Shown one piece after another: positions 23,563 to 40,621 of a DNA stretch of 64,000 nt. The notes below the pieces were generated by a model. The model was not told where the DNA came from and ran no database searches. It saw only the letters and a list, made by a program, of their open reading frames with translations. This DNA comes from Cerioporus squamosus (taxonomy: Eukaryota; Basidiomycota; Agaricomycetes; Polyporales; Polyporaceae): NCBI GenBank assembly GCA_022592435.1, contig JABYQS010000027.1:124001-188000 (forward strand). Direction: 5' to 3'. The translations under genes and the position numbers were made by a program. Positions within the stretch are counted from its first letter, which is position 1; the number at the start of each line of letters is the position of its first letter.

Positions 23563-23623
23563 TGCCGTAGTTCATCGTCATCTTGTTACTGACGGAGCTC
23601 ATGCTTTCCCCAGCTCGCACTAG

Positions 23624-23862
23624 TTGTCGTGTCAAGGCTGTTGGATGCTTCCATCTCTTTCTCTTCCTCTTCGTCTTTGGGAGTCAGCCTCGGGCTTCAG
23701 GACTCCTTTAGAGAACTTCTGGCTATCTTTATAAGCTCATCATCCTCACCTTACCCACTGAAGTATATATGTTACATAGAGCGCTACGTGAACTGGAGTG
23801 GACCTAATAGCGATAGAGTACTGAGACGACGGACTCGCTTAGAAGACGTATCTGTTCCGCTA
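23624..23862. other. Spacer between secreted-protein gene and transposon
   Basis: This holds the 3' flank of the secreted-protein gene, ending in the TA dinucleotide (23861-23862) that borders the element. Confidence 0.6.
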
Positions 23863-23892
23863 CACTGCAGCACGCAGGAACAGCGGATTTCG
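23863..23892 (+). repeat. Left terminal inverted repeat of the transposon
   Basis: It starts CACTGCAGCACGCAGG and pairs with 33298-33327 at 23/30 positions. The terminal seven bases are identical. Confidence 0.85.
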
Positions 23893-24298
23893 GGTGGAAA
23901 CAAGGGGCGGTTGAAACCGTCGGAGCAGCCGCCGGGAAATCACTCGGCGTGCCCACCGACATCCCACGGTTTTCCTGAACACCGGAATCCGAGTGTCAGC
24001 TTAGCTGGCTTCCCCGTGTCCATACCTTTGGCGTTATCTTTTCCATTCGGTATCCAGCCAGACGTGCCACTGGCAGTATTCTCCAGCTGTACTTAGCACG
24101 AGACACGAACACACGAGTGCCTCACGCGCAGCGCGTTTGGGCGCTCATCCACCTCTCTCTGTGCCGCCTCCTCGCGCAAGCATATCAGCCTCACCTACGT
24201 GAATATGGCCACTGCTGACGTACAGTACGTTGTTCTAATGCTCTATCAAGGCCTATTGAAGACGTCCGAAGGACAGGCCGACGGGATTGGTTGGGCAT

Positions 24299-24660
24299 AT
24301 GGGGCACAATACTGTCGCACCTCGCTGTGCTTGTGGGGGGAACTGTGAGTACTAGTTCTTGCTCCTTATTCACCAATATCTTGCCCCTCTACATGTAAAC
24401 GTACCATCTCTCATACATCTACAGGTGCTGTCCATCTTTTCCTCGCTCAAGAGCTCGGGGTCTTAAGCCAGGAGGTCCATCGGTGGCACGAGCGCGAGAA
24501 TCACGCGCGCGATCTCCTTGCGCGTACAGAACACTCCCTGCGCGAGTACGTCGCGCTTTTCCACATGATGCGCAAGGAGTGCGAACGCCTGGAGGCTCAA
24601 GTTCAGGAGCTGAAGGGTATGGCTAGCCACGCCGGTGGATTGGATGTGTCGCGGGGATAG
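24299..24660 (+). CDS. Small Cys-cluster/coiled-coil protein inside the transposon
   Basis: Two exons (24299-24344 and 24425-24660, 80-nt intron, phase 1) give a 93-aa protein. It opens with a short Cys cluster 'RCACGGNC' (CxCxxxC, split by the intron) and continues as an almost continuous amphipathic helix rich in Glu/Arg ('LSQEVHRWHERENHARDLLA', 'MMRKECERLEAQVQELKG'), predicted as a coiled coil. No family is recognised. It lies between the left TIR and the large transposase-like gene in the same orientation, so it may be cargo or an accessory DNA-binding or oligomerisation factor. The start is the only in-frame ATG after a stop codon. The second exon is convincing; the first is less so. Confidence 0.5.
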
Positions 24661-24920
24661 CTTCTCGTCCTAGACTCATGTACTTGTATCATCTCTCCTC
24701 ACTGTCTGTCTCTCTCATCTGGATTGGTTAAATGTCATCATCTTGCTGCATTGGAACTCTGTTGTGTGCCCTCAACTGTAAGCCTCAGCGATCTAATCAA
24801 GCTTAAGGAGAGCGACTTCAGCACCCTGCTCGGGATTTTCCGGGCAAGGTAGACCTCATCGAGGACATCTGTGTCGCAGAAGTCTGAACTTACCCTTTGC
24901 GCGACTCAGTCTCTATCGCT

Positions 24921-27900
24921 ATGTCTGCACACAATAAAGCAAATCCGGGCAAACGGGCACGCTCGGGAACCGGAGACTCTACTGACATTCAACTGAGGCC
25001 GCCGACTAAGAAACAACTGCTCTATCCGAAATGTATGTGCATATCTAGGACTCATAGTAGGATGAACAACTAAGTTACGTCTACGAAGTCTTCATGCAGA
25101 ATCGCATCGGCGATTGGCAGTGTGTGATCTGCGAGAATCGACCGTACGAAACACTGGCGCGGGCTATCCGGCACGAAGCCAGTGTCATGCACACAGAGAA
25201 GCTACGCTACATCGATCGCGCCGGGCAAGGAGCGCACACACTGTCAAGCCCACCTCTCATGGCGGATGACTCATTGGACGACGAAGACATCGAACCAGGT
25301 GCCACGGAGGAGGGTCTCGGGGGCAGTGTGAGCATGCCAGCCCTAGGCGAAGAGAACGGTGGCGGGGTCGGCGCGAGAGGATGGGACCAACCTCAGCCGG
25401 ACCAGCTTCAGGCAGGTGTTACCGGCTTGGACACGCTATACGATCCGGAAGGATATGCGATCGGGACGGTTCATGGTCCTGCCCTGCCTCACGACCCTCC
25501 TGGTCAGATCTATGACAACTGGGGCGGGTCGCTCTCGGATCTAAGCGAAGGCGAGGAGGAGACAGCTGAGGGAGAGTACAATGAGACATCGGTCCCGTTA
25601 TCGGATGAAGAGCGGGATGAGTACACTGCGCGCGAGGTCGATCTGGAGCTTGAGGACGAAGACGACCAGGACGAGCATGATGAGGACGACCTCCAGGGGG
25701 CTTCGGGTCCATTGTTCGTGCCCGACGTCATTGAGATGGACGCCGATGTCCTCCTTGGCCAGGAGGATGTGCCGGCTGAAGAAGCAGGTGAGTGATACAA
25801 GTATGTTCAAAGGTATGGGGTACTGACGATATCCATGCTCTCAGTCGATCATCCAGACCCGAAGTCCGTGCTTGAGGAGGATGCGGAGATGTGGTGGCCA
25901 TGGCCCAGCCGCGAGGTGAGTGCGCGCCCGAGTTCTACTACGAGTGCGGAGAGGTACTAACCTCCCCAACAGGCATGCTTGCTTGACATAATGGGTGCAT
26001 TCCCCCGAGCACTTTTCTCCGAGTCTGAGCTCGCCGCGGCTCGGTGGTTAGCTTCCAAACTGGGCGCGGGGAAGCTTCCAACGCTGCGCCAAGTGAAGCT
26101 CGCCCGGAAGGCTGTTCTAGATGTTGTCGGTCTGGCACCGCAGACGTTCGAAAGCCACCAGCACAACCTCTATACTGTTGAGGATTTCGAGCGGATTATC
26201 AAACATGTGAGTACATGACGCAGTCGGAAACATGGTGAATAATGGACTCACCCCGCTACACAGGAGTTCGCTAATCCAATTGTGCGCCGGCATCTTGCGA
26301 CTTACGCGCAGGATCCTGGCAATTTCCTGCACGATACTCGTCAGGCACGGAAATGGCGGGAGGAAGTGGATCCTAACCTCGCAGGTCCAATGGCACGGGC
26401 AGCCGACGGGAAGGACTACTTCGTCCAAGAGCTTGCACTTGCGGAGGTCCCCGCTGCCGGAGGTACGATCCCCATTATGATCCTACGGTGGTATGAGAAA
26501 GACGGTAAACTCATCGCTCGTGCACACCCTGTACGACTCACCCCTACCCGAGATGCCTTTGTGGTTGATGGACGGCCGGACAAGATCGTCGATATCCCTC
26601 TGGACTGTTTCAGGATGTCGGTGGAGGAGCTGCATAGCAAAGAGGTTCAGAGAGTGTACGAACTGCCTCCTCCCTCAAGTATTTGCGGTATGCAGTCCTA
26701 CATGTTGTTAGTCTTCGACCATCAATGTGATACTCATAGCGAACTGTAGGCATCATACGTACCAGTGACATCGGCATTCCACTGGATTGCTGGCCACATG
26801 ACACAAGAAACCCATGGCGCGTCCGGGCGGCAGGAAAGCGTGTGCTCGCGGTGCCGATATGGCTGTACTGCGACGACACATCTGGCAACTCATCAAAGAA
26901 ATGGAATAAGCATAATTCAATCCTCTTCGTGCTCGGCGGCTTACCTCAAGATCAAGTGCAGCGTCTCTACAATATTCACTTCTTGTCGACCTCGAACATT
27001 GCGTCGCCTCTCGAGATGATGGAGAAGGTCTCATCAGTCTTGCGGTATGTCGTCTCAATCGAGACCTCCATATGTGTATTGCTGTCTGATGCCAGTGCTC
27101 TTGGGCGTCGGAACTAGGGATACTCGTGAGCGAGGCTTGGAAGTTTGGGACTGCCTTACTGGAGAAGATGCACTGGCGGTTCCATGGGTACACGCCTTCC
27201 AGGGCGATAATCCCATGGCCAGCGAGTTTGCTTCCCATGTCGGGATGGCAGGGAAGTGTGTTTGCAGGATATGCGACGTCTATCGCAAGGTCGCTGGGGA
27301 GCCTGTGCTGAGAGGGGTCGCGGCGGAGGTTCGAAAGGTCACCGACTTCCTGAAGGCACGTGTGATTAATACTCTGACATAGTCTGTGCTCACAATCATC
27401 ACAACAGGCAGGAAACCCACGTACAAAGGCAGGCACACTGGCCGACTTGCGCCAACAAGAGGATCGTGCTTTTGGCGGGGCTCCCAGTGCGGTTGATGGA
27501 ATGGCAACCAATACCGGAACCAAAGACAAATACTTCGGTTACTTTGTCGATGAACTTCAGAAGAAGTTGAACCGCTTCCGCGAGAAGCGCAGCAAGAAAA
27601 AAACAGCCGCCCCCGGCACCGTCGCAGACTCAGGCCCAGAACAGGGTGGAGAAGGAGCGCCTGCGACAGGAACGGAGGTTCCTGCAGAGATGAGCGAGGG
27701 ATCAGATTCAGGTCTTAGCACAAGTGACGATGAAGAGGATGATCATACTGCTCGTGAGCACCACAGAAACATGGTGATGAGCCAACAAGACTGAACTAGT
27801 CCTTCAGCGCAACAGCTCCCTTGGGAGACACGCCTGGCAGACAAGTTGCGCGAGATCCGGGGGAACATGCCGGCAAATATCTTCAATCCTGTCTTAGACA

Positions 27901-30346
27901 TCCCAGGTACGTCGTTGCCTCTGCATGTCATGCATGAGAACACGACTGAACATTATTCCCTATGCAGACTTCGATGCACATGCAGATTCCCCTATTGAGA
28001 TCTTACATGTCGTCCTCCTCGGTGTTGGGAAGTACTTCTGGCGGGACGCGTGCGCGCGACAGACGCCAGAAGGGAAGGAGATTCTCAAGGCGAGGCTCTC
28101 GAGTATGAACGTCGACGGGCTGGGAATCTCACCTATTCGTGGTCATACCCTCGTGTACTACGCAAAGTCGCTTGTTGGCCGGGACTTTCGGATCGTTCTG
28201 CAGGTTGCGCCCGCCGTGTTACACGGGATGGTTCCAGACGCTGCATACGAAGCATGGTTAGCTCTGGGCCGTCTGGCGCCACTCATATTCCAGCATACAA
28301 TAGAGGACCTACCAACGTACACGGTGAGCAGCCTAGTCTTCGCAATACCCATGGCACATGTTCAGGACCAAGTCTTCTGCCAGAGTCATCTTCAATCTGC
28401 AATAGACGACTTCCTTAACACAACAGCCCTGTGGACCACGCAATGGTTCAACAAACCGAAGTTCCATCTGTTCGTCCATCTCCTCGACCACATTCTCCGC
28501 TTTGGACCAGCAGCATTGTATTCAACGGAAGCTTTTGAATCATACAACTTCGTCATTCGTCTGCGGAGCATCAATTCCAACAAACACGCACCAAGTTCGG
28601 ACATTGCACAGTCATTCAGTCATCTCCATGCTGTCAGGCACCTCCTGAGCGGCGGCTACATCACCGTCGACAAGGACGGCAATTCCATTACACCTCGACA
28701 AGCAGGCCAAAGGGTGAGAGACTTGCTGGACGACCCGGAGTTGCGCACTCTGATGTGCATGAACGACCTGAGTGAAACCACACGGCCAGGTCAGTATTAC
28801 CGAGTATCATTGTGACACATGCTGACATAGTGCTTAGGGGAGTACACACCTATGAAACTTGCTGACGGCGCTCGATGCTCCGCCGCGGAGACATGCACGG
28901 CGGCAGCCGGGATGACAACCACACTAACCCCTACTGTGACGCGGTGTACACTCGTCCACCTCCCCAATGGAGACCGGGCAAGTCTTGGAGGACATGTTGT
29001 GTATACCCAGCCAGCCACTGCCGGGAACAGCCGCAGTGAAGCTGTCCATGTCGGTCGTGTGGAGGAGATTCTCGCGGACGCGGACCACGGGGGCTTCCTG
29101 GGTGTCCTGGTTAGCCCATGTACGATCGGCTCTATCGTGCTCCCTTACCGTATGCCGGCTTGTTCGGTGCATCCTGACCGGCCCGTGTTTCTTACTCTCA
29201 AGGTGAGGCGACACTTATCAACATTGAAGTACTTGGTTGATGAACCTGCGTTCATGCAGAACCTTCTTGCAAGCGTCAACACCTTTCACAATTGCGCAAA
29301 GTACAAGTGTAAACTAAAGAATACGCACCATGTCATGCAAGAACGCGTTCTCACCAAGAAGACCACCCAAGAGCGCGTCCACCGGAGGCATCCTGATGAT
29401 CGAGTTCTTAATACAGCGCAGCTTCGGAGCTCAGCGGTCTTACTTGCCTTCCGACATCCCGATGCACGGTATCCCGACTTGACAAGAGCGCAGGTCGTCG
29501 AGCAGGCTATCAAAATACGCGCTGAGCTTGACCTCGAGGCCGCCAGAAAGAAGCTCGACACACAGCAAAAGCAGGCCACTCGTGCCGCAAAGCGCAACGG
29601 CACGAATGCCGCTCCCGCTGACCCGGTCGCCGGGCTGCAGCAGGATTTGGTCAACGATGCGTCGGGCAACCTGGTGAGCAATTGTGTTAGCCTAACAGTC
29701 CTACTTGATATAACGCGATATACAGCCCGTATCAAGATCCTCACGGCGAGGGACGTCCAGATCGCGCACGCCCGCAGCGTCCACAAGACCGTCGACTCCT
29801 CGGACACCCCGCGGCAGACAACCACCAACTGAGATGCCGCAAATGAGCAGCGAGCTGCCGCAGACACCTCAAACAGCAATGCCTGACTCCTCGCAGTGGA
29901 CGGCGCTCCCTCCCCCATCGACGGCAACTTCTGACTTCAATGCTGACCATCTCGCCGCATCTCCGTGGCCTGGGCAGTCCTCGCACATGACGCAACTTCC
30001 TATCGATCTTCGCTATACGCCCAACTACTCATCGCAAAACACCGGAGGCATCCCCGCGACCCACTCCTCTGCTTACATGGCTGCGGCCGCGTGGCAGCCT
30101 CAGGCGGCGGCCCACCAATCCTCGATGAGGGTACCCTATCACTCTAACTATGCCACCGCGCCGCCACACGGGCTGCCGACACACTTCCCATATGGGAGTG
30201 CTGCTTGGAGCCCATCTGCTAACCCAGCACCATACTCACCTGGACCATCCGCGCTATCCGACTACTCCTACGCCCCTCCGAATGCGGGGAGCCGGGGCAG
30301 TGAGCTGCCAGACCTGCGAGGAAGACATCAGCCTGAGCAGCGGTAA
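24921..30346 (+). CDS. Transposase-like protein of a large agaricomycete family, 13 exons
   Basis: From the ATG at 25094, exons 25094-25787, 25845-25915, 25973-26206, 26264-26687, 26750-27044, 27118-27359, 27412-27773, 27816-27906, 27968-28323, 28384-28789, 28838-29673 and 29726-30346 give about 1,543 aa, with every phase closed. A likely first exon (24921 to about 25023, basic) does not join in phase. Order of parts: an N-terminal C2H2-like finger ('WQCVICENRPYETLARAIRH', His near 'SVMH'), a long acidic linker, then the catalytic core with 'VPIWLYCDDTSGNSSKKW', 'IHFLSTSNIASPLEMM', 'WVHAFQGDNPMASE' and 'CVCRICDV'. Next come 'IEILHVVLLGVGKYFWRDA', 'WFNKPKFHLFVHLLDHILRF' and 'ALYSTEAFESYN', and finally an Arg/Ser tract and a Pro/Ser/Gln-rich tail. 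I recognise these blocks from a repetitive mushroom gene family related to Tnp2-type DDE transposases. 'CDDTSG' and 'GDNP' may carry the first two catalytic Asp residues (inference). Confidence 0.85.
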
Positions 30347-31186
30347 GACTGCGGACTGAGCAGGCTTACCAGAGGATGAACGATCGCGTTCACTGGCAGT
30401 AGGTGCTGAGCTGGCGGTGGGAAGAGGATGGGATGATCGATTGAAGGCAATGGGAAAGAACTCAGTTTGTATGTACGTACTACTAGGCGCTCGACGCCCA
30501 CACTCGCAAACATGTTCGCTTGCCTCGCGATTATCGAGTGTGCTCGCTGGCCTGCAGCAATTTAACGTTCACCCACCATTCTCGTCCATGCTGTGAGCAT
30601 ACAATGCGGCGTGAATTACTATGCACATTCTACGACCCTCCGGACTCGGGCCCGCACTATCATGGCAGTCACTCTCGTGAGTTTAACCATGGTTTCTCCC
30701 CCGCTCACGCTTCTTTGACCATATGGGATCTCCAGTCGATGGTCGCATTGCAGCGCACACCAAGCCTGCCCTGCTATCGAACGGCCGCATATCCCCTGAA
30801 GCCATTGACCACTGCTCGAGCTGCTCGCCTCCCAGTGAGGCTCCGCTGAGCCATTTGCATCATGTAAGTACCCTCGATGGCCGCTCTTCACGTCACTTCT
30901 AACGCCCTCGTCTCTGAAATAGCCATCAAGACACGTCCTCACGAGCACACGTCGACTCAAGTTCTCACTCTGCGTCTGGCGGCGCGCTGCAGATCCTGCG
31001 CCACTCAGATGGCACTCGAAAGCCTTTGGCCCAGTTTGGTCACCGACCCGCAGCGGCTATTCCTTTTTTGGTTCGTCTCCCGCTCTCTCCGCCCTGCGTT
31101 GCCAGCTCAACGTTTTTCTGTCCGCCCTTTGCACTCTCCCGTCCGGCTGCATCAGTCATTCCCACTTGCTCCGGTTCTCGCTCAAC
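30347..31186. other. Spacer between the two large genes of the transposon
   Basis: No conserved coding is apparent. A pyrimidine-rich stretch (31,060-31,180) directly before the next ATG looks like a fungal core promoter or leader. Confidence 0.5.
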
Positions 31187-33007
31187 ATGTCCTCCTCGAC
31201 GCCCGCCAATGACCCTTCCGAGCGAGGTGCAGGTGGCGTTGCTCGACACGCTACTTCAGGGATTTACCGCACCACGCCGTACAACGCCGCTCAGCGCAGG
31301 ACTGCCGGTAGCAATGGCGGGACACCTGCAGGGGGCAGTCCGCTCTTCCCACCTCTCCGCAACCTGCCTCCCAGCCCCGCAGACTCCTCGCCGATGCACA
31401 CCAACCAGACCAGCTGGCATCCTCAGGGTCACGCAGTGCAGCCCGATGGTTCCTTCTTCGCGCCTCAAGGAGCTCAGTCCGTGCCGCAGTCGTGCATGCA
31501 CGATGACGAGGATCCGCTCAACGCACACTATCCCATGAACACCGTCGGCACAATCCGTCAGCCCCCGCAACTCACACCGGCGCATGCCACGTCAACGCAG
31601 TACGCGCCGCCGCCGCTCCACACCGGCGGGCTCACCCTGAGTGAGATGGAGGGCCTGATCGACAGGTTTGGTATTGATACCCAGCGTAGTAAGGTGTACG
31701 CCTTCCAGGAGGTGCGTGACTGAGGCAGAACCCGCATGCCGAGCTAACGATACCGGGCACACAGAGGAACATCGAGGCCAAGCTCATGATCATGTTCATG
31801 CAGCAGCTGAGCCTCGACACTCGGCTGTCCGCTGTGTTCAACACACTTTCTCAGACTGACGATAGACTCCGGCACCTTGAGAAGCTCTGCTCAATCGGGT
31901 GGACCCCCAACAAACCGCAATATGTAAGTCTCGTGAGTATTGACTCGCCTGCTCATGGTCTGACTCCATCCCTTCCGCAGAAAATGTTGCGGGCACTCAT
32001 GCGCCACTACGCCATCAAGGCCTTGCCGACGTATACTGCGCTCGCGGGCTACGTCAAGGTTTGTCTATACGCTCTCCGCGACGTTCCGCAGCTGACACAT
32101 ATGACATGATTGGGCGCAGACTTATATACAGAACAACGCCGATGTCTTGCAAATGGGCTTCTACAACACCGACCCCCCCGTCCGTACTACCATCAACAGC
32201 ATCTGCATCGATCTCGCCGGGCAGGTCAAGAGCAATTTCCGGAAGGCGGTAAGTATTCCGTACTTCTCTTCCGCCGCTTCGCGGCATGTCTGACGTTTAG
32301 TTACTTGTTCCTAGCTCTTCAAGGCAGTGGCGAAGAAGACGTCGCTGAGTGTGTATGCCGCCAATACCTACAACAAGTACCACCTCGCTCCAGTCCCGAA
32401 GGAAGTTCCAAACCACATCCTCGCCACCTTTGCACTGATGGTAGGTGTCCTTCCTTCGAGTGCGCGTCCACGAGTTCCACTAACAGTCCACCTGTAGCGC
32501 GATGTCGCGGAGCCTCTCGCGAAGAAGAAGAACAGTGCTGGGAACGACACCGGGTTCTGGAAGAATCTAGAGAAGGCGATTGACGACGCTTACAAGAAGA
32601 ACGAGCCTGACAAGGACCGGGTGAATGGGCCGGCTTGGACAGAGTATGTATCTATTCTCCTTCTTGCTGTTCAGATCCCCCACACTGATTCTTTGACGCA
32701 TTCTGATAGGTGGGCTGCGAATCTAATTGCGAACGACAAGAGAAGGTGGCCGGCACTCGAGGACTCTGACACGGTCATCCCTGATGGCACCGAGGAGATC
32801 GACAACGCGCTGGGCATCACGCGCGAGTATGAGAACGACATAGGTATTCCAGGGTTCTCTGCTGATGCTTCTATGCAGGATGCCATGACGCATCCCCCGC
32901 AGGACGAGGAGGAGCCCGCTTCTGACGATGAAGAGGCGGCTGCTCCCATCTCAGATGCTCTTAGTGCTGAGCTCGCGCGCCGCGCCCAGGGGGAGCCTAC
33001 TATGTAG
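31187..33007 (+). CDS. Transposon companion protein of unknown function
   Basis: Seven exons (31187-31711, 31765-31923, 31981-32058, 32132-32248, 32315-32440, 32498-32643, 32710-33007) encode 482 aa with closed phases. The first 150 residues are low-complexity (Pro/Ser/Gln/His). A helical region follows ('RNIEAKLMIMFMQQLSLDTR', 'TDDRLRHLEKLCSIGW'). A conserved-looking globular part comes next ('ALPTYTALAGYVKNNADVLQ', 'INSICIDLAGQVKSNFRKAL', 'KKTSLSVYAANTYNKYHLAP', 'DTGFWKNLEKAIDDAY'). The motif 'WAANLIANDKRRWP' then precedes an acidic C-terminus. No known domain is recognised. Its place between the transposase-like gene and the right TIR, co-oriented, parallels the two-gene layout of plant CACTA elements (a transposase plus a subterminal-repeat-binding protein). 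A similar DNA-binding or regulatory role is a hypothesis. Confidence 0.75.
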
Positions 33008-33297
33008 TGATGTCGCTGTATTACTGTAATGATCGCTCAACAAGTGTGTTGCTTGCCCGACTTCTGTCATATGTGGTGTGCTATTGTGAATGAACGACAT
33101 ACAAACACTCGTTCTCGCCGCCCATGGGGAGGAGCATTGCGCGCCAATACTGTCTACATATGGAAATTATGCGGTCGGGATGCCCAAAGGTCCGGCCACC
33201 TGGTCTCCGGTAAGCTTACCCATTGAAATCCACTGTTCGGGAAAACCGTCGGATTCCCGGCGCGTCGACGCTGGTTTCCCCTGCGCTGCTGGATCAG

Positions 33298-33327
33298 CGG
33301 ATTCCAGTGTTCGTCCGTGGTGCAGTG
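33298..33327 (-). repeat. Right terminal inverted repeat of the transposon
   Basis: On the minus strand it starts CACTGCACCACGGACG and pairs with 23863-23892 at 23/30 positions. It is followed outward by TA (33328-33329). Confidence 0.85.
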
Positions 33328-33770
33328 TACTTGCGGAAGTCAATGTGGCTGTGCTTACTCCCTACTACTCAGACTCTTGACTCCATCGTAAACGGAATCA
33401 CTGAATAATGTATTGACTTTGCTCCACGACCGCTTTTCAGCCTGCAAATTGCTTCACGGACGACTGACTAGACTTACATCCCCTGCTCCTTCAGGATAAA
33501 CCTGGACCTTAGCGAGAGGTCGCGCATTATGTCCCTCTGGCCGTGGGTTCGATGTTTAGGAACATCTCCTATAGTCATGACTTGAAAGACCCATCCGAGG
33601 ACTCGTACAGCACTGAGGTTGGGCTGAGACATACTCGCTGGGCAAGTAACTCGCATGCTAACTTTACTACGGTTGTCTTCTCTTCCCAGGTCGACGCTCA
33701 CGTCACGGCGGGGTTCGACTCGGCTATCGGATCGGCGATTATCGTCTTGTTGCAGTGTCGGCGGCACGTT

Positions 33771-34385
33771 GTTACAGCTGTTTGCAGAGGTCGTGGCCAG
33801 GCGCCGATTGCACAGCACGCGTTGTGCACAAAAAAATCAGAAATTTAGAAAATCTGAACGAGTCGTTCGCCGCTTTCTTCTGACTAGGACTACTCTGGGA
33901 GACGCAGAAAGCTTACAGGAGTATGTACGGAGCGTCAGAAATGCGGAGAGCGCAGAAGATGAGCGAGTATCGCGATGTCGTCTACGAGCGCTTAAGATCG
34001 TCCCTGGGGGCTTATGGGATTTATGCATGCTCACACGTCCCAAGCCTTCGCAGCACCTTGGAGAGCATTCAATCATATACTTACGGCTTTGATGTACGCT
34101 TCACCAAATTTTGGTGGAGTCTGTAGGGGCGGAAACACCCTAAACACTCCTACAGATGAGCAGTGACCTGGCATTACTATCTCCGCATTATGGGCATGCT
34201 GCGACTCAGAAAAAGTTGGAACAGGTCGAGGGCGCATGCCATAGCATGATGGAGTGGCGTAGCATGTATATACTGGTGTTGTTGTCCTACGGACGAATTT
34301 TCTCAATATCGTGAATATTACGCGTCAAAAGTGTGTGCGCGTCAGTCGGAGTTGGGCGGACACGACTTCTGCAAACAGCTGTAAC
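33771..34385. mobile_element. Candidate non-autonomous element or MITE bounded by 25-bp inverted repeats
   Basis: The segment 33771-33795 (GTTACAGCTGTTTGCAGAGG...) and the reverse complement of 34361-34385 agree at 24 of 25 positions. The 615-bp interval has no supported gene, contains AT-rich patches, and includes two smaller hairpins (33,838-33,858 and 34,124-34,156). No target-site duplication was identified, and the exact ends may extend further out (a GGCGGC is present just outside both repeats). Confidence 0.55.
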
Positions 34386-35984: not shown

Positions 35985-38900
35985 TCAACCCGCCACCACT
36001 GCTGCCTGCGCTGCCTGCATGTCCTGTAGAGCGCTCAATGCGATGGCAATCGCGCACTGCACGTCCGCGATTGGAGGCGTTGCAGGACGGGCAGCCGCAC
36101 CTCCACCCGCCCCGTCCTGCATGTCGACGCTTAGCGGGTCCGACGGCGGCTCGCCCCATTCCGGCTCCTCCTCCTGTCGCAGAACTCGGGCGACGACCTC
36201 GTCTATGGAGACGTACAAGCGCGAGTCGAGCGCCGAACGCTTGCCGATGTATGCTCGCCGTCGAGAAAGGAGCCGAGCCGAAGCAGGGCGTGGTGCAGGA
36301 GTCGCAGGTTGTGATGGACCCCCTGCGACGCCGTTGGCAGCTCCAACAGGAAAGGGGCCGGTGTGGAGGACCTGACCGGCTTGAGCGGCGGGTTGTCCCA
36401 TTGTCAATAGAGGATTCGAGGTGGCGTCCTGTACCGAAGGTGAACTGTGCTGCTGGGCACCGGAGACCTGCCCGTTCACATCCGACGGAAGCTGAGGAGG
36501 GACAGCAGGCAAAGGACCAGCGGAGGGAGTCGCAGGCCCGCGCTTCTTGCCGATATACGCCACGACCCTCTTTTGTATAGCGACCTTCTGTTTCTTGCGG
36601 ACGTAACCATCCCCGATGCGCTTCCCTTGCAAGTCATACACGACGCCAAAGAACGTCCCTGGAGGCGGCAGCTCAAACTCGATCGGCGGCGTCAGCGCCC
36701 TCTCCGCGCCCGGTGTCTTGTTCCACATCGCGTCTTCAATGAGCGCGCGCTCTTCGGTAGACCCGGGAGGCGGCAGCTTCCCGACACGCGCAGAGATGTA
36801 CGTCTCACCGCGCTTGGCACAGCAGCTCGTGCAGTTACAAGTACCAGCGCAGCGGGGGCACTCGAAGCTGACCGCATACGGGTTGAAGGTCATATCGGGG
36901 TACCTAGAAGTATGTACACATAAGGATCAACGATGTCTGTCCATGCCAGGGTGGTCGCCAGACAATAGAGAGAACACAGGGAAGAAAAGAAGTGAAGGGC
37001 GAAGAACTCTGAAAAGGACCAGCGACTCACCTCAAGTCTATGCAGCGCTCACAGTACCTCAGCCCGCACCTCTCATCTCCCTCCCTGACCACCGTGCAGC
37101 GCATCTTGTCGCGCGTGTTCTTGTTCCTGCACTGATGGCAGAATGTCGGCTGCTGCGCCAGCTGCCTGAACGTCTGGGGCGAGGGCGGAGCCGCGTCAGC
37201 CGCTGGGCGTTTACTACTAAGAGGATTCTTCCCCGGCCCCTTACCCTTCTTCCGCATGCTTGCTGCCGTCTCATCTGCGGACTTGCCCTGACTTGTGGGC
37301 TCCACAGCGACGGCCTTCTCCTTCCCCTTGCCTTTTCCTTTCCCCTTGCCTTTCCCCTTGCCTTTCCCCTTGCCGGGGCTCTTGCCGCCCTGCTCCGGGA
37401 CGAACACGTCGTCTTCGTCTGACGACTCGCCAAAGATTTCGTCGTACGCCTCCTTCATCGCGAGCGCACGCTCGGTGAGCCGTCGCGGTCGCCTCTTGTC
37501 CTGTAGCGCGGCTTCGTGTGTGAGCTCGGTCGGGTACTTTCTTTGTCGCTTCAACTTCTCCGCGAGCGGCCGTTCGCTCCCCGATGACTCGTCCACGCGG
37601 CTCGGGGTGGCGCGAGTTCGACTAGACGCAGAAGACGAAGGCGGGCGTTGCGACTTGCGGACGTGAGATGGACCAGCGATTGAACTGCTCGTCTGAGAGG
37701 AAGGTGATGGCGGGATCACCGGCTCAGGAGGAGGGAGCATGCCCCCGAGAAGAGATGGGTTGATCGTTCCGACTGCTTGTGTACCCTGTACGGGGGCATC
37801 GGGCGGTCCAGCCGGCATCCCAGCGACGGGATGCCCGTTGATCATCCACGGAACCATCGACGTATGCTGTCCATTGAGTGCGATGGGCATCGGAGCCATG
37901 AACACGCCGTGCGTGACCTGTGGAGGCTGATTGGGCGGAAAGTATCTCTTCGCAGCCACGTCGAGAGCAGCAAGTACGTTCGCGAAATTGGAGTCCGCGC
38001 CAGGACTGAATTGCGGCGAGTGATCGAAGGGGAAAGAGCCCTGCTGCATGATGGCGGGACTGAATTGCCGACCTTCGGCTTGGGGCACCGGAGGTGGGGG
38101 CATATTGTCGCTGGTGCCATTTGAGTCAGAGCTCGCGCCGGGCTGAGGTGTGGCGGGACCACCGAGCGAGAGCAGAATATCCGACATCGCGTGGTCAAGG
38201 CTGTGCTGCGAGTCACTTCGGGAAGACGGTCGAGGCACGTTTCGCAGTAGATCATGCAATGTCAGCGGATGTTGCTGGACGTGGTCGAACGGGAGTAGAG
38301 GCGAGACTGATGGAGGAGGCATAGTCTCAGCTCTATGCGGTGCGGGAGCATTGGGCGACTCAGGATGGGCGGGTGGTACAGAGTTCCGTGAGGAGCCAGA
38401 CGGGGGAGGGATGGTAGAGGAGGAGCGAGCTGAGCGGCGTGGCCTAGAAACGGGAGGCGTTCCCTGCGCAGAAGGAATGGCGAGACTACCAGAGGGCGGC
38501 TGCTGCTGCTGCGCCTGGGACTTGATCCATTGCCGTCTGGGCAAGGGTATCTTCTGTTTGGACGGCGTCGCGCGAGTCGAAGACGACTCAGGCGGCACAG
38601 ACGCTGAGTGAGGAGGGGAAATAGGATGAGGCTCGGATGGAGGAGGAACGGACGGTGAGTGCGATTGCGGTGCAGGTGATTCGGACTGGGAAGCAGTATG
38701 AGATGTGTGTGGAATATGGTCCAAGCTCATCCGCACCATGAGCAATTGGGGACGAGGCCGCGCAGGAGCGTTAGGATCCACGCCCTTCGTTAGGTGGCGG
38801 GAGATCGCAGAAAGCTCTGCCTGAGTGATCGAGGGGTACGATGCTATCTGGACCGTCGTAGAAGGACAGAAGTCCTCCAAGCTATCTGCTGGCCCTGTAG

Positions 38901-40621
38901 GTTGTTCTTCCTCCTCCTCGTCTTCCTCCGGTTGCTCAGCGTTCTGTACAGGTTCCGGCTCTGGCTCTGGTTCTGCGAGCAAGGACGGATCTGCCGCAGG
39001 AGGTTCGCTCTTCGGCTTCTTGGTCTTGGTCGATGCGGGCGTAGAAGGAGGCCGTCCCCGCTTCCGCGGAACAACTGCGCTAGCGCTCACGGGCTCTTGG
39101 GCGACGGGAACCGTGCTGGAACTAGGATCATCATTGATCAATCTCTTCGCGCGTGTTGCCTTCTCCGGAGGAGCAGATGCGACCACCGTCTTCGTCTTCG
39201 GTGGCCGGCCACGACGTTTCTTAGCAGCGGGAGACGCCGTCTCGCTCGGGGCTCGCGCATTCGACACAGAAGCAGAGTTCAACGCTTGCTGGAGTTGCGA
39301 TTCGTAGTCAGCGCCCACCTCTGGGTCCTGCAGAATAGGGATCTCTGACGCCCGCTTGTACACGGCCCTCCTGCGAAAATCGGGAAACGGCGGCACATCC
39401 ACGTAGTCGCAGATCAGTCGGCGTCGCTTGTTTGGTTGGTGCAGAGAGCCACGTTGTGACCGTACTGTGGAGAGCGATGTCAAGGGACTGGAAGACAGCG
39501 GGGGCCGGCTGCCGCCAGCAGATGCCTGAAGCGTGAAAAACATACCCGTCAGTATCCAAGCAGAAGCGTGCATCGAGTCGGCTTACATGATCTTCCGCAG
39601 GCTGAGCATAGGGTGTGGGGGATGATATGGGCGCAGGCACTCCAAATGCTAACGGTGACATAGTACCGCGTGTCGGTTGCTGGCGTCGTGCGAGCGTGGC
39701 TTGATACGAGGGAGGAGAAAAGTGGGGAGCGCTCTGCGCAGTGGACGGCACTGCAGATTCTGAGCGAGATACATAGTATTCCTGTGCAGCGTCCAGGAAT
39801 TCATCCGTGTAAGAACCATGACGCCAGGAAGGAACCTGTACCACAGGAGGTGCAGGAGTGCCCGTCTCGTCGTCCGTCTCGCCATCAGCGTCGAGCAACG
39901 AGCTTGCATCCTCCTCTTGCGCGGCGAGGTTGGAAGGATTCTTCTGACTTGCAACTGAGGAGCTTGGGTAGCTGTCCTTCAGTATGCCATTTACCGCCGG
40001 TTGGTCGGCCTCATGAGAAGTGCTTGCAGCAGGCGGTGTAGTAGAACGCATCGCGTCTTTCCCCAGGGGCTGCAGAGTGGCATCCGTTGTTTTTGGCAGA
40101 GAGTCGAGCTGCTACGGGTGTGTGGGGTGAGATCTTCCCGCCACAACCGCGTCCCCTCGCAAACGAAGCAGACGTACCTCTTTCTCTGCCAGCTCGGGGG
40201 TGAACAGCGGACTCATACGCGTCGTCTCGCCCTGGCCATCCACCACAAACCAGTCACCCATCCGCTCTTCCTCCTTTATAGAGCGTATAGATCCACTCAC
40301 CGTTCTCGACGCGTCCACCGCATCCGCCATCTCCACGTCAGTATCTTTTGCTCCTAGTCCCGCGCCGTTTTGCAACGTGCTCGGGTCTTCGTCTTCCGGA
40401 AGACTCTTGCTCATCGTAGTAGCATAGGCAAGCAGTTCAAGGGGTCCAGATGGCACAGATGGCGCGTCAGCCTTAGCGGGAGAAGCAGTGGCAATTTCCG
40501 TTCCCATGCGCGGTGCAGGCGAAGCTGGCCCTGAACCGGACGGCGTGTCCATGTCACCGCCAGATGCGGAAGCAAGCCCGCCGTCCCAGTTAGCGAGCTC
40601 TGAGTAGTTAAGGCCGTTCAT
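35985..40621 (-). CDS. Large chromatin protein with AT-hooks and a zf-4CXXC_R1 domain (CDCA7-like)
   Basis: Four exons on the minus strand (40621-40178, 40111-39587, 39525-37031, 36903-35985) give exactly 1,460 aa with closed phases. The first half is disordered, with two AT-hooks ('KKRRGRPPKTK' and 'RKRGRPPSTP'), which bind the minor groove of AT-rich DNA, and acidic runs. A (Lys-Gly) repeat ('GKGKGKGKGKGKGKGKGK') precedes the C-terminal zf-4CXXC_R1 domain. That domain reads 'FCHQCRNKNTRDKMRC', 'CGLRYCERC', 'FECPRCAGTCNCTSCCAKRG': four CxxC-type pairs that coordinate zinc, split by the last intron. The domain is known from CDCA7 (partner of the HELLS remodeller, binding hemimethylated CpG) and the MAOA repressor R1. 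A nuclear role linked to heterochromatin or DNA methylation is inferred. The start was set at the ATG at 40621 because the upstream frame has no ATG. Confidence 0.88.
37316..37376. repeat. Lys-Gly coding microsatellite
   Basis: An imperfect 6-bp repeat (CTTGCC/CTTTCC type on the plus strand) encodes the alternating Lys-Gly run of the chromatin protein. Such tracts vary in length between strains. Confidence 0.75.

Follow-up and report, generated by a model that had tools for sequence, protein, structure and literature searches.

The antibody-gene recombinase RAG1 is accompanied by RAG2, which brings a PHD reader to it. The RSS on which it acts and the ends of Transib transposons both start with CAC, and the RAG/Transib target-site duplication (TSD) is 5 bp. 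Plant CACTA/EnSpm elements, which encode a transposase (Tnp2) and a second protein (TnpA), have CAC ends, subterminal repeats, and a 3-bp TSD.

In Kojima 2025 (PMC12730594), the CMCT clade (CACTA/EnSpm-Mirage-Chapaev-Transib) is defined by motif, fold, termini, and TSD: D, D, and E, with C(2)C and H(3-4)H separating E from the second D, a RAG1/Transib-like fold, CA..TG termini, and a TSD of 2-5 bp. The same paper describes Plavaka, with TGT..ACA or CATCA..TGATG termini and occasional 2-bp TSDs, and ESTA, an EnSpm-like lineage with TA TSDs and RAG1-like transposases in rust fungi, accompanied by a TET/JBP gene. Among the papers listed by literature searches for an element like the present one in mushrooms, only that one was directly relevant; an earlier, unlabelled entry in Repbase is conceivable.

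The window is a 64,000-nucleotide stretch of Cerioporus squamosus, of the Polyporales (C190:124001-188000), within a 54-Mb assembly of 988 contigs, which was the genome searched; positions below are those of the window. We read 23863-33327, with a probability of about 0.87, as a complete, probably autonomous candidate cut-and-paste transposon that recently entered one haplotype, with end recognition, cleavage, and a partner protein's role as proposed below.

Termini and target site

Both termini of this transposon, which occupies 23863-33327 (+) of the window, are fixed by comparison with an empty site. When the left flank up to 23862 is joined to the right flank from 33330, the product aligns in one uninterrupted stretch with another contig of the same genome, C499 (identity in 1654 of 1679 columns; 7 of the others are gaps). 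C499 has an uninterrupted target site there, with a single TA and no element; consequently, the termini are exact to the base and the TSD is TA. The delimiting features are:

23861..23862, no strand: TA target-site duplication, left (single TA in the C499 empty site)
23863..33327, +: complete transposon, 9,465 bp (unbroken C499 match of the joined flanks; end kilobases single in the genome)
23863..23892, +: left terminal inverted repeat, CACTGCA... (inverted-repeat listing)
33298..33327, -: right terminal inverted repeat (inverted-repeat listing)
33328..33329, no strand: TA target-site duplication, right (C499 empty site)

Of the inverted repeats listed for 23600-33600, the longest pairs 23861-23892 with 33298-33329 (78% over 32 nt), and by hand count the termini, CACTGCA..TGCAGTG, pair at 23 of their first 30 bases. 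An earlier note, made from the sequence by itself, had proposed a complete mobile unit with these two ends, both beginning CACTGCA, matching at 23 of 30 positions and flanked by TA. The C499 site confirms the unit, our recount agrees, and the flanking TA is a true duplication, being single in C499. Each terminal kilobase occurs once in the genome, and so there has been no burst. Used as a pattern with up to 3 mismatches, the left 19 bases gave 24 genome matches versus 35 for the reversed control, which does not indicate further copies. Being single-copy in the assembly is what would be expected of an assembly artefact or of a non-mobile cluster of host genes, but an empty site that is exact and holds one TA, together with the inverted ends and three relatives with the same properties, makes either extremely improbable.

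Most simply, C499 represents the other haplotype, with the element on one and absent from the other. C499, together with several Plavaka (PF18759) and Tnp2-type (PF02992) matches that score equally on two contigs, suggests that the assembly holds both haplotypes. In principle, the empty allele on C499 could instead be the product of an exact excision. Because its genes are open and only one of the two apparently allelic contigs carries it, the element makes a practical candidate for a transposon active in fungi.

The sequence to the right has features of its own. A 612-bp short element (617 bp in C499), with inverted ends CAGCTGTTTGCAGA.GTCGTG, lies at 33772-34383; C499 has a 94% copy instead at the position equal to about 33407 of the window, with TA on both sides, and C756 holds a further 94% match. 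It looks like a recently mobile MITE, and short-word blastn found no meaningful relation between it and the ends of the 9.5-kb element. Two long open frames follow, at 35988-36926 (-), 313 aa, whose sole hit is a zinc-finger match below threshold (zf-4CXXC_R1, E 0.0036), and at 37030-39582 (-), 851 aa, with no Pfam match at E <= 0.01.

The transposase gene

The largest gene of the element, gene 1, has an intact reading frame. The earlier note had placed it correctly and had given it 1,543 aa; respliced, it encodes 1,565 aa. The homolog P0002 aligns with this product from residue 1. The database model of gene 1, P0001, starts at residue 307 of the 1,565-aa version and is a 93% match to it, interrupted by gaps where some of the introns lie. 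(The first intron, of 38 nt, is the least certain part of the splicing.) The gene and its parts are as follows:

24921..30346, +: gene 1, transposase, 14 exons, 1,565 aa; exons 24921-25036, 25075-25787, 25845-25915, 25973-26206, 26264-26687, 26750-27044, 27118-27359, 27412-27753, 27808-27906, 27968-28323, 28384-28789, 28838-29202, 29260-29673, 29726-30346 (own splicing; P0001)
25121..25192, +: N-terminal zinc-finger-like stretch CxxC...HxxxxxH (sequence; splicing factor SF3A2 as a weak profile hit, E 0.11)
26300..26814, +: possible BAH-like domain inside the transposase (P0001 residues about 85-235, gene 1 residues about 390-541; interrupted by the intron at 26688-26749)
26872..26874, +: first catalytic Asp (DDTSGN), residue 561 (invariant in alignments A1 and A5; strand end in the predicted model)
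27206..27208, +: second catalytic Asp (GDNPM), residue 648 (near-invariant in A1, invariant in A5)
27263..27274, +: C(2)C motif CRIC (alignment)
28465..28479, +: H(3)H motif HLFVH (alignment)
28537..28539, +: probable catalytic Glu (TEAFES), residue 1016 (near-invariant; inside a helix in the predicted model)

In P0001 numbering, D255, D342, C361/C364, H639/H643, and E663 are invariant or near-invariant among 40 aligned sequences; the Glu three residues before E1016 is near-invariant too in alignment A5. The fold predicted for P0001 residues 1-730 is RAG1/Transib-like, at about 10-13% identity in fold alignments, while a PDB profile search with the transposase returned no transposase and only weak matches (best E 0.11). 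The protein thus carries the D, D, and E residues, C(2)C and H(3-4)H in the interval from the second D to E, and the predicted fold of the clade; CA..TG termini with a 2-5 bp TSD are present in all four elements delimited among the seven genomic loci treated below. From these features we infer that the enzyme is a CMCT-clade DDE transposase with the RAG1/Transib fold. The resemblance to CMC/EnSpm elements suggested in the earlier note is therefore right at the level of the clade.

Further along, P0001 residues about 740-960 (window about 28900-29460) form a conserved beta-rich C-terminal domain (VGRVEEIL... NTFHNCA..C), which is mostly well predicted; the listed fold matches mostly end at residue 730. 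A BAH identity for the embedded domain was also sought by sequence and found no support: PF01426, and Pfam in general, gave no match to this part in gene 1 or in the family members scanned, the 2 PF01426 matches in the genome both lie away from this locus, and hhalign of the embedded part against those two BAH domains gave a probability of <1%, with no BAH chain in a further search.

The earlier note had counted three co-oriented genes. The transposase and gene 3 (below) stand; the left-hand one, at 24205-24660, was dropped, as no relative was found and no consistent splice could be made by hand. For its ORF, 24349-24660, neither the fetched loci (itself apart) nor 120 fetched transposase homologs contain a relative, and Pfam gives no match over the cut-off.

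The partner gene

Downstream of the transposase, and in the same orientation, lies a second gene:

31187..33007, +: gene 3, partner protein, 7 exons, 486 aa; exons 31187-31711, 31765-31923, 31981-32058, 32120-32248, 32315-32440, 32498-32643, 32710-33007 (splicing; P0121; homolog searches)

Gene 3 is intact, with its frame open throughout, and P0121 is 99% identical to its product. Protein searches with it, which pass over proteins far longer than the query, returned itself, one Lentinus brumalis protein (49%), and the partner encoded by a related element on contig C23, and nothing else. A profile built from these three proteins finds the domain at the C-terminal end of 5 transposase homologs among the best 120 of 422 (two Trametes, two Mycena latifolia, and one Ceratobasidium). 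Such joined proteins may be gene-prediction artefacts; the join shows that the two genes are adjacent. Within the genome, the partner HMM is strong in C190 and C23 and weak in C90, though in the right place (E 0.049); it finds nothing in C151, which shows no more than a short similar motif, or in the C756, C712, and C6 stretches.

No known domain was found in gene 3. Predicted alone, the protein gives an unusable model (pLDDT 37), and a PDB profile search returned only IpgB2 at E 1.2, which we take as chance. A passenger host gene, captured by chance and not a working part, would fit both the lack of a known domain and the failure of the HMM to detect it in C151. This is unlikely, however, given that C23 has a counterpart in the same order and orientation at 32-34% identity, that all 8 genome matches (protein search, E <= 0.001) fall inside the C190 and C23 elements, and that the domain is joined to the transposase in predicted proteins of three other genera. 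Gene 3 probably encodes a conserved accessory factor which, by analogy with TnpA of CACTA, would likely act in end binding or assembly; its position and conservation point to this role.

Related elements in the same genome

The gene family, which the earlier note rightly called recurrent in mushrooms, comprises 422 homologs of gene 1 at E <= 0.001 in a protein database search. Among the best 120 of these, 119 carry an organism name (P0107 is the exception), and all 119 come from mushroom-class fungi. Empty sites fix the ends and the target rule of the transposon to which this common but unnamed mushroom gene family is now assigned.

Against the genome, a 217-aa core of the transposase gave 10 matches at 7 loci (C190, C23, C90, C151, C756, C6, and C712). 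The joined-flank test was applied to C190, C23, C90, and C151, and an uninterrupted site was found for all four; each has a TA duplication and CAC..GTG ends, with the rest of the termini differing. C6 lies at a contig start, and no ends stood out when C756 and C712 were scanned.

The C23 element is 9,175 bp long and starts CACGGGC, its ends having been located by scanning for TA only. Its joined flanks gave 9 matches, of which 5 cross the junction (four span all 360 bases, one 349), 2 are its own flanks, and 2 end before the junction. Read at the junction, 4 of the 5 crossing matches have one TA; in the fifth, C196, the exact 13-base junction string was not found. The TIR score alone (21, reached by 13 of 100 simulated sequences) is not significant, and the ends were accepted because of a subterminal match of 24 (null maximum 17 in 500) together with the empty sites. 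The C151 element (8,642 bp, CACC[AG]CC) has joined flanks that C212 matches over 340/340 bases, 100%. The C90 element (10,934 bp, CACAGC) lies within a dispersed repeat; its joined flanks gave 9 matches, 2 to its own flanks and 7 that cross the junction at 76-94%, with the left flank contributing just 31 bases. For both C151 and C90, the ends were picked by a scan for TA + CAC and the support consists of the empty sites, judged from match coordinates and identities rather than from base-level alignments.

Where measured over the whole protein, the transposases of the genomic relatives are 45% or less identical to that of the present element, and the relatives are separate families with their own ends. 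Common termini for the whole family were considered and rejected, since only TA-CAC is shared among the delimited elements; in the stretches of the six relatives CACTGCA is only scattered, and the 14-bp motif GAACASYGGAWTYC is absent at <=1 mismatch. The CACTG ends given in the earlier note therefore hold for this element and not family-wide, where CAC is all that the four delimited elements have in common. The note had also named copies with other ends as a finding that would speak against it; such copies do exist, yet they belong to those separate families.

Subterminal motifs and proposed mechanism

As the earlier note had observed, a motif occurs twice near each end in inverted orientation. 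The window contains four exact copies of GAACASYGGAWTYC (23878+, 23977+, 33225-, 33299-), two per end, and one further copy with 1 mismatch at 33292+; against these 5 matches at <=1 mismatch in the whole window, 100 shuffles averaged 0.34 and never gave more than 2. The inner copies sit within a 30-bp repeat.

23878..23891, +: outer left GAACASYGGAWTYC copy (motif scan)
23961..23990, +: inner left subterminal repeat ATCC[CG]ACGGTTTTCC[TC]GAACASYGGAWTYC (motif scan, end comparison)
33225..33238, -: inner right GAACASYGGAWTYC copy (motif scan)
33299..33312, -: outer right GAACASYGGAWTYC copy (motif scan)

The similarity score between inner ends is 31 for the window element and 24 for C23, above the maximum seen in 500 random pairs (17); the scores of C151 (15) and C90 (12) are near the null (95th percentile 11, 99th 14). 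The subterminal repeats are likely binding sites. The inner repeat lies deeper at the left end by 25 bp in the window element and by 24 bp in C23, the repeat sequences themselves being different. In the weak C151 and C90 alignments the corresponding offsets are 85 and 47 bp; because the 25/24-bp offset is absent from these two, asymmetric ends akin to 12/23 signals are not claimed.

In the mechanism that we propose, the transposase would bind the termini through the inverted GAACASYGGAWTYC sites, using its N-terminal finger and/or the partner protein. Cleavage would fall just outside CAC, probably by way of RAG-like hairpins on the flanks, and the 3' ends would then be joined at a TA, the two points of joining being staggered by 2 bp, followed by gap fill. 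The nicking, hairpin, and strand-transfer steps are suggested by the predicted fold and by the biochemistry of RAG and Transib.

Comparison with known systems

Genome-wide searches gave 108 Plavaka (PF18759) and 54 Tnp2-type (PF02992) matches, counted exon-wise and not as elements. None is at this locus, and the element therefore represents a third CMCT-type population in this genome. Plant CACTA/EnSpm elements resemble it in their CAC ends, subterminal repeats, and second protein, but they have PF02992, CACTA termini, and 3 bp, whereas the present element lacks Transposase_21 and has CACTG and 2 bp. PF02992 was not found in gene 1, and of 22 family members scanned one gave a match (E 0.04); hhalign against one Transposase_21 protein of the same genome gave a probability of 0.5%. 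Pfam KDZ has no match at E <= 1 in gene 1, nor does it appear among the families listed for the 22 members.

When the family profile was compared with a profile of five Plavaka proteins from this genome, the probability was 91.4% (E 9.3e-7). The alignment takes in the second D, then CxxC and HxxxH, and finally E, with the first D unaligned, so that homology at profile level and the CMCT motifs are common to both. The 2-bp TSDs that occur in Plavaka, according to PMC12730594, would also suit a Plavaka with unusual ends. However, PF18759 is absent from gene 1 and from 22 of 22 family members scanned (P0001 included), and CAC..GTG differs from both kinds of Plavaka termini given there, which leaves this reading improbable. 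The view of the earlier note that the gene set is unlike Plavaka is thus upheld, although a distant profile relation exists.

In PMC12730594, fungal EnSpm elements have CAC..GTG ends, as here, with a TSD of 3 bp in place of the 2-bp TA. SmTRC1-type animal CACTA elements, as described in PMC1636069, share a 2-bp duplication, paralogous empty sites as proof, and a fast-evolving second protein; unlike the present element, they have CCC ends and a Transposase_21 domain. The TA TSDs and RAG1-like transposase by which PMC12730594 defines ESTA are both found here, as are C(2)C and H(3-4)H, and the element could be a member of this rust-fungus lineage that occurs in mushrooms. Against this, ESTA is described from rust fungi and with TET/JBP, whereas the element belongs to the mushroom class and has a different second gene. 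No rust is among the 119 named proteins in the best 120 of 422 homologs, and none of the three proteins scanned with Pfam has a match to TET/JBP. Membership in ESTA is possible but doubtful.

An equally tentative reading is that of a separate mushroom lineage of RAG1-fold transposons, which would insert at TA, have CAC ends and a conserved partner, and carry within the transposase a BAH-like chromatin reader, by which insertion might be aimed via histone marks; the PHD reader of RAG2 would be the analogue of this putative reader. Whichever lineage holds, the element resembles RAG1, ProtoRAG, and Transib in its predicted fold (P0001 1-730) and in starting with CAC, and differs in the possible BAH-like insertion in its transposase and in its duplication. 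Among RAG1-fold relatives it would stand out by its target rule, which is 2 bp as against the 5 bp of RAG/Transib, and its testable partner protein and possible built-in chromatin reader bear on how RAG1-type enzymes gained their helpers and targeting domains.
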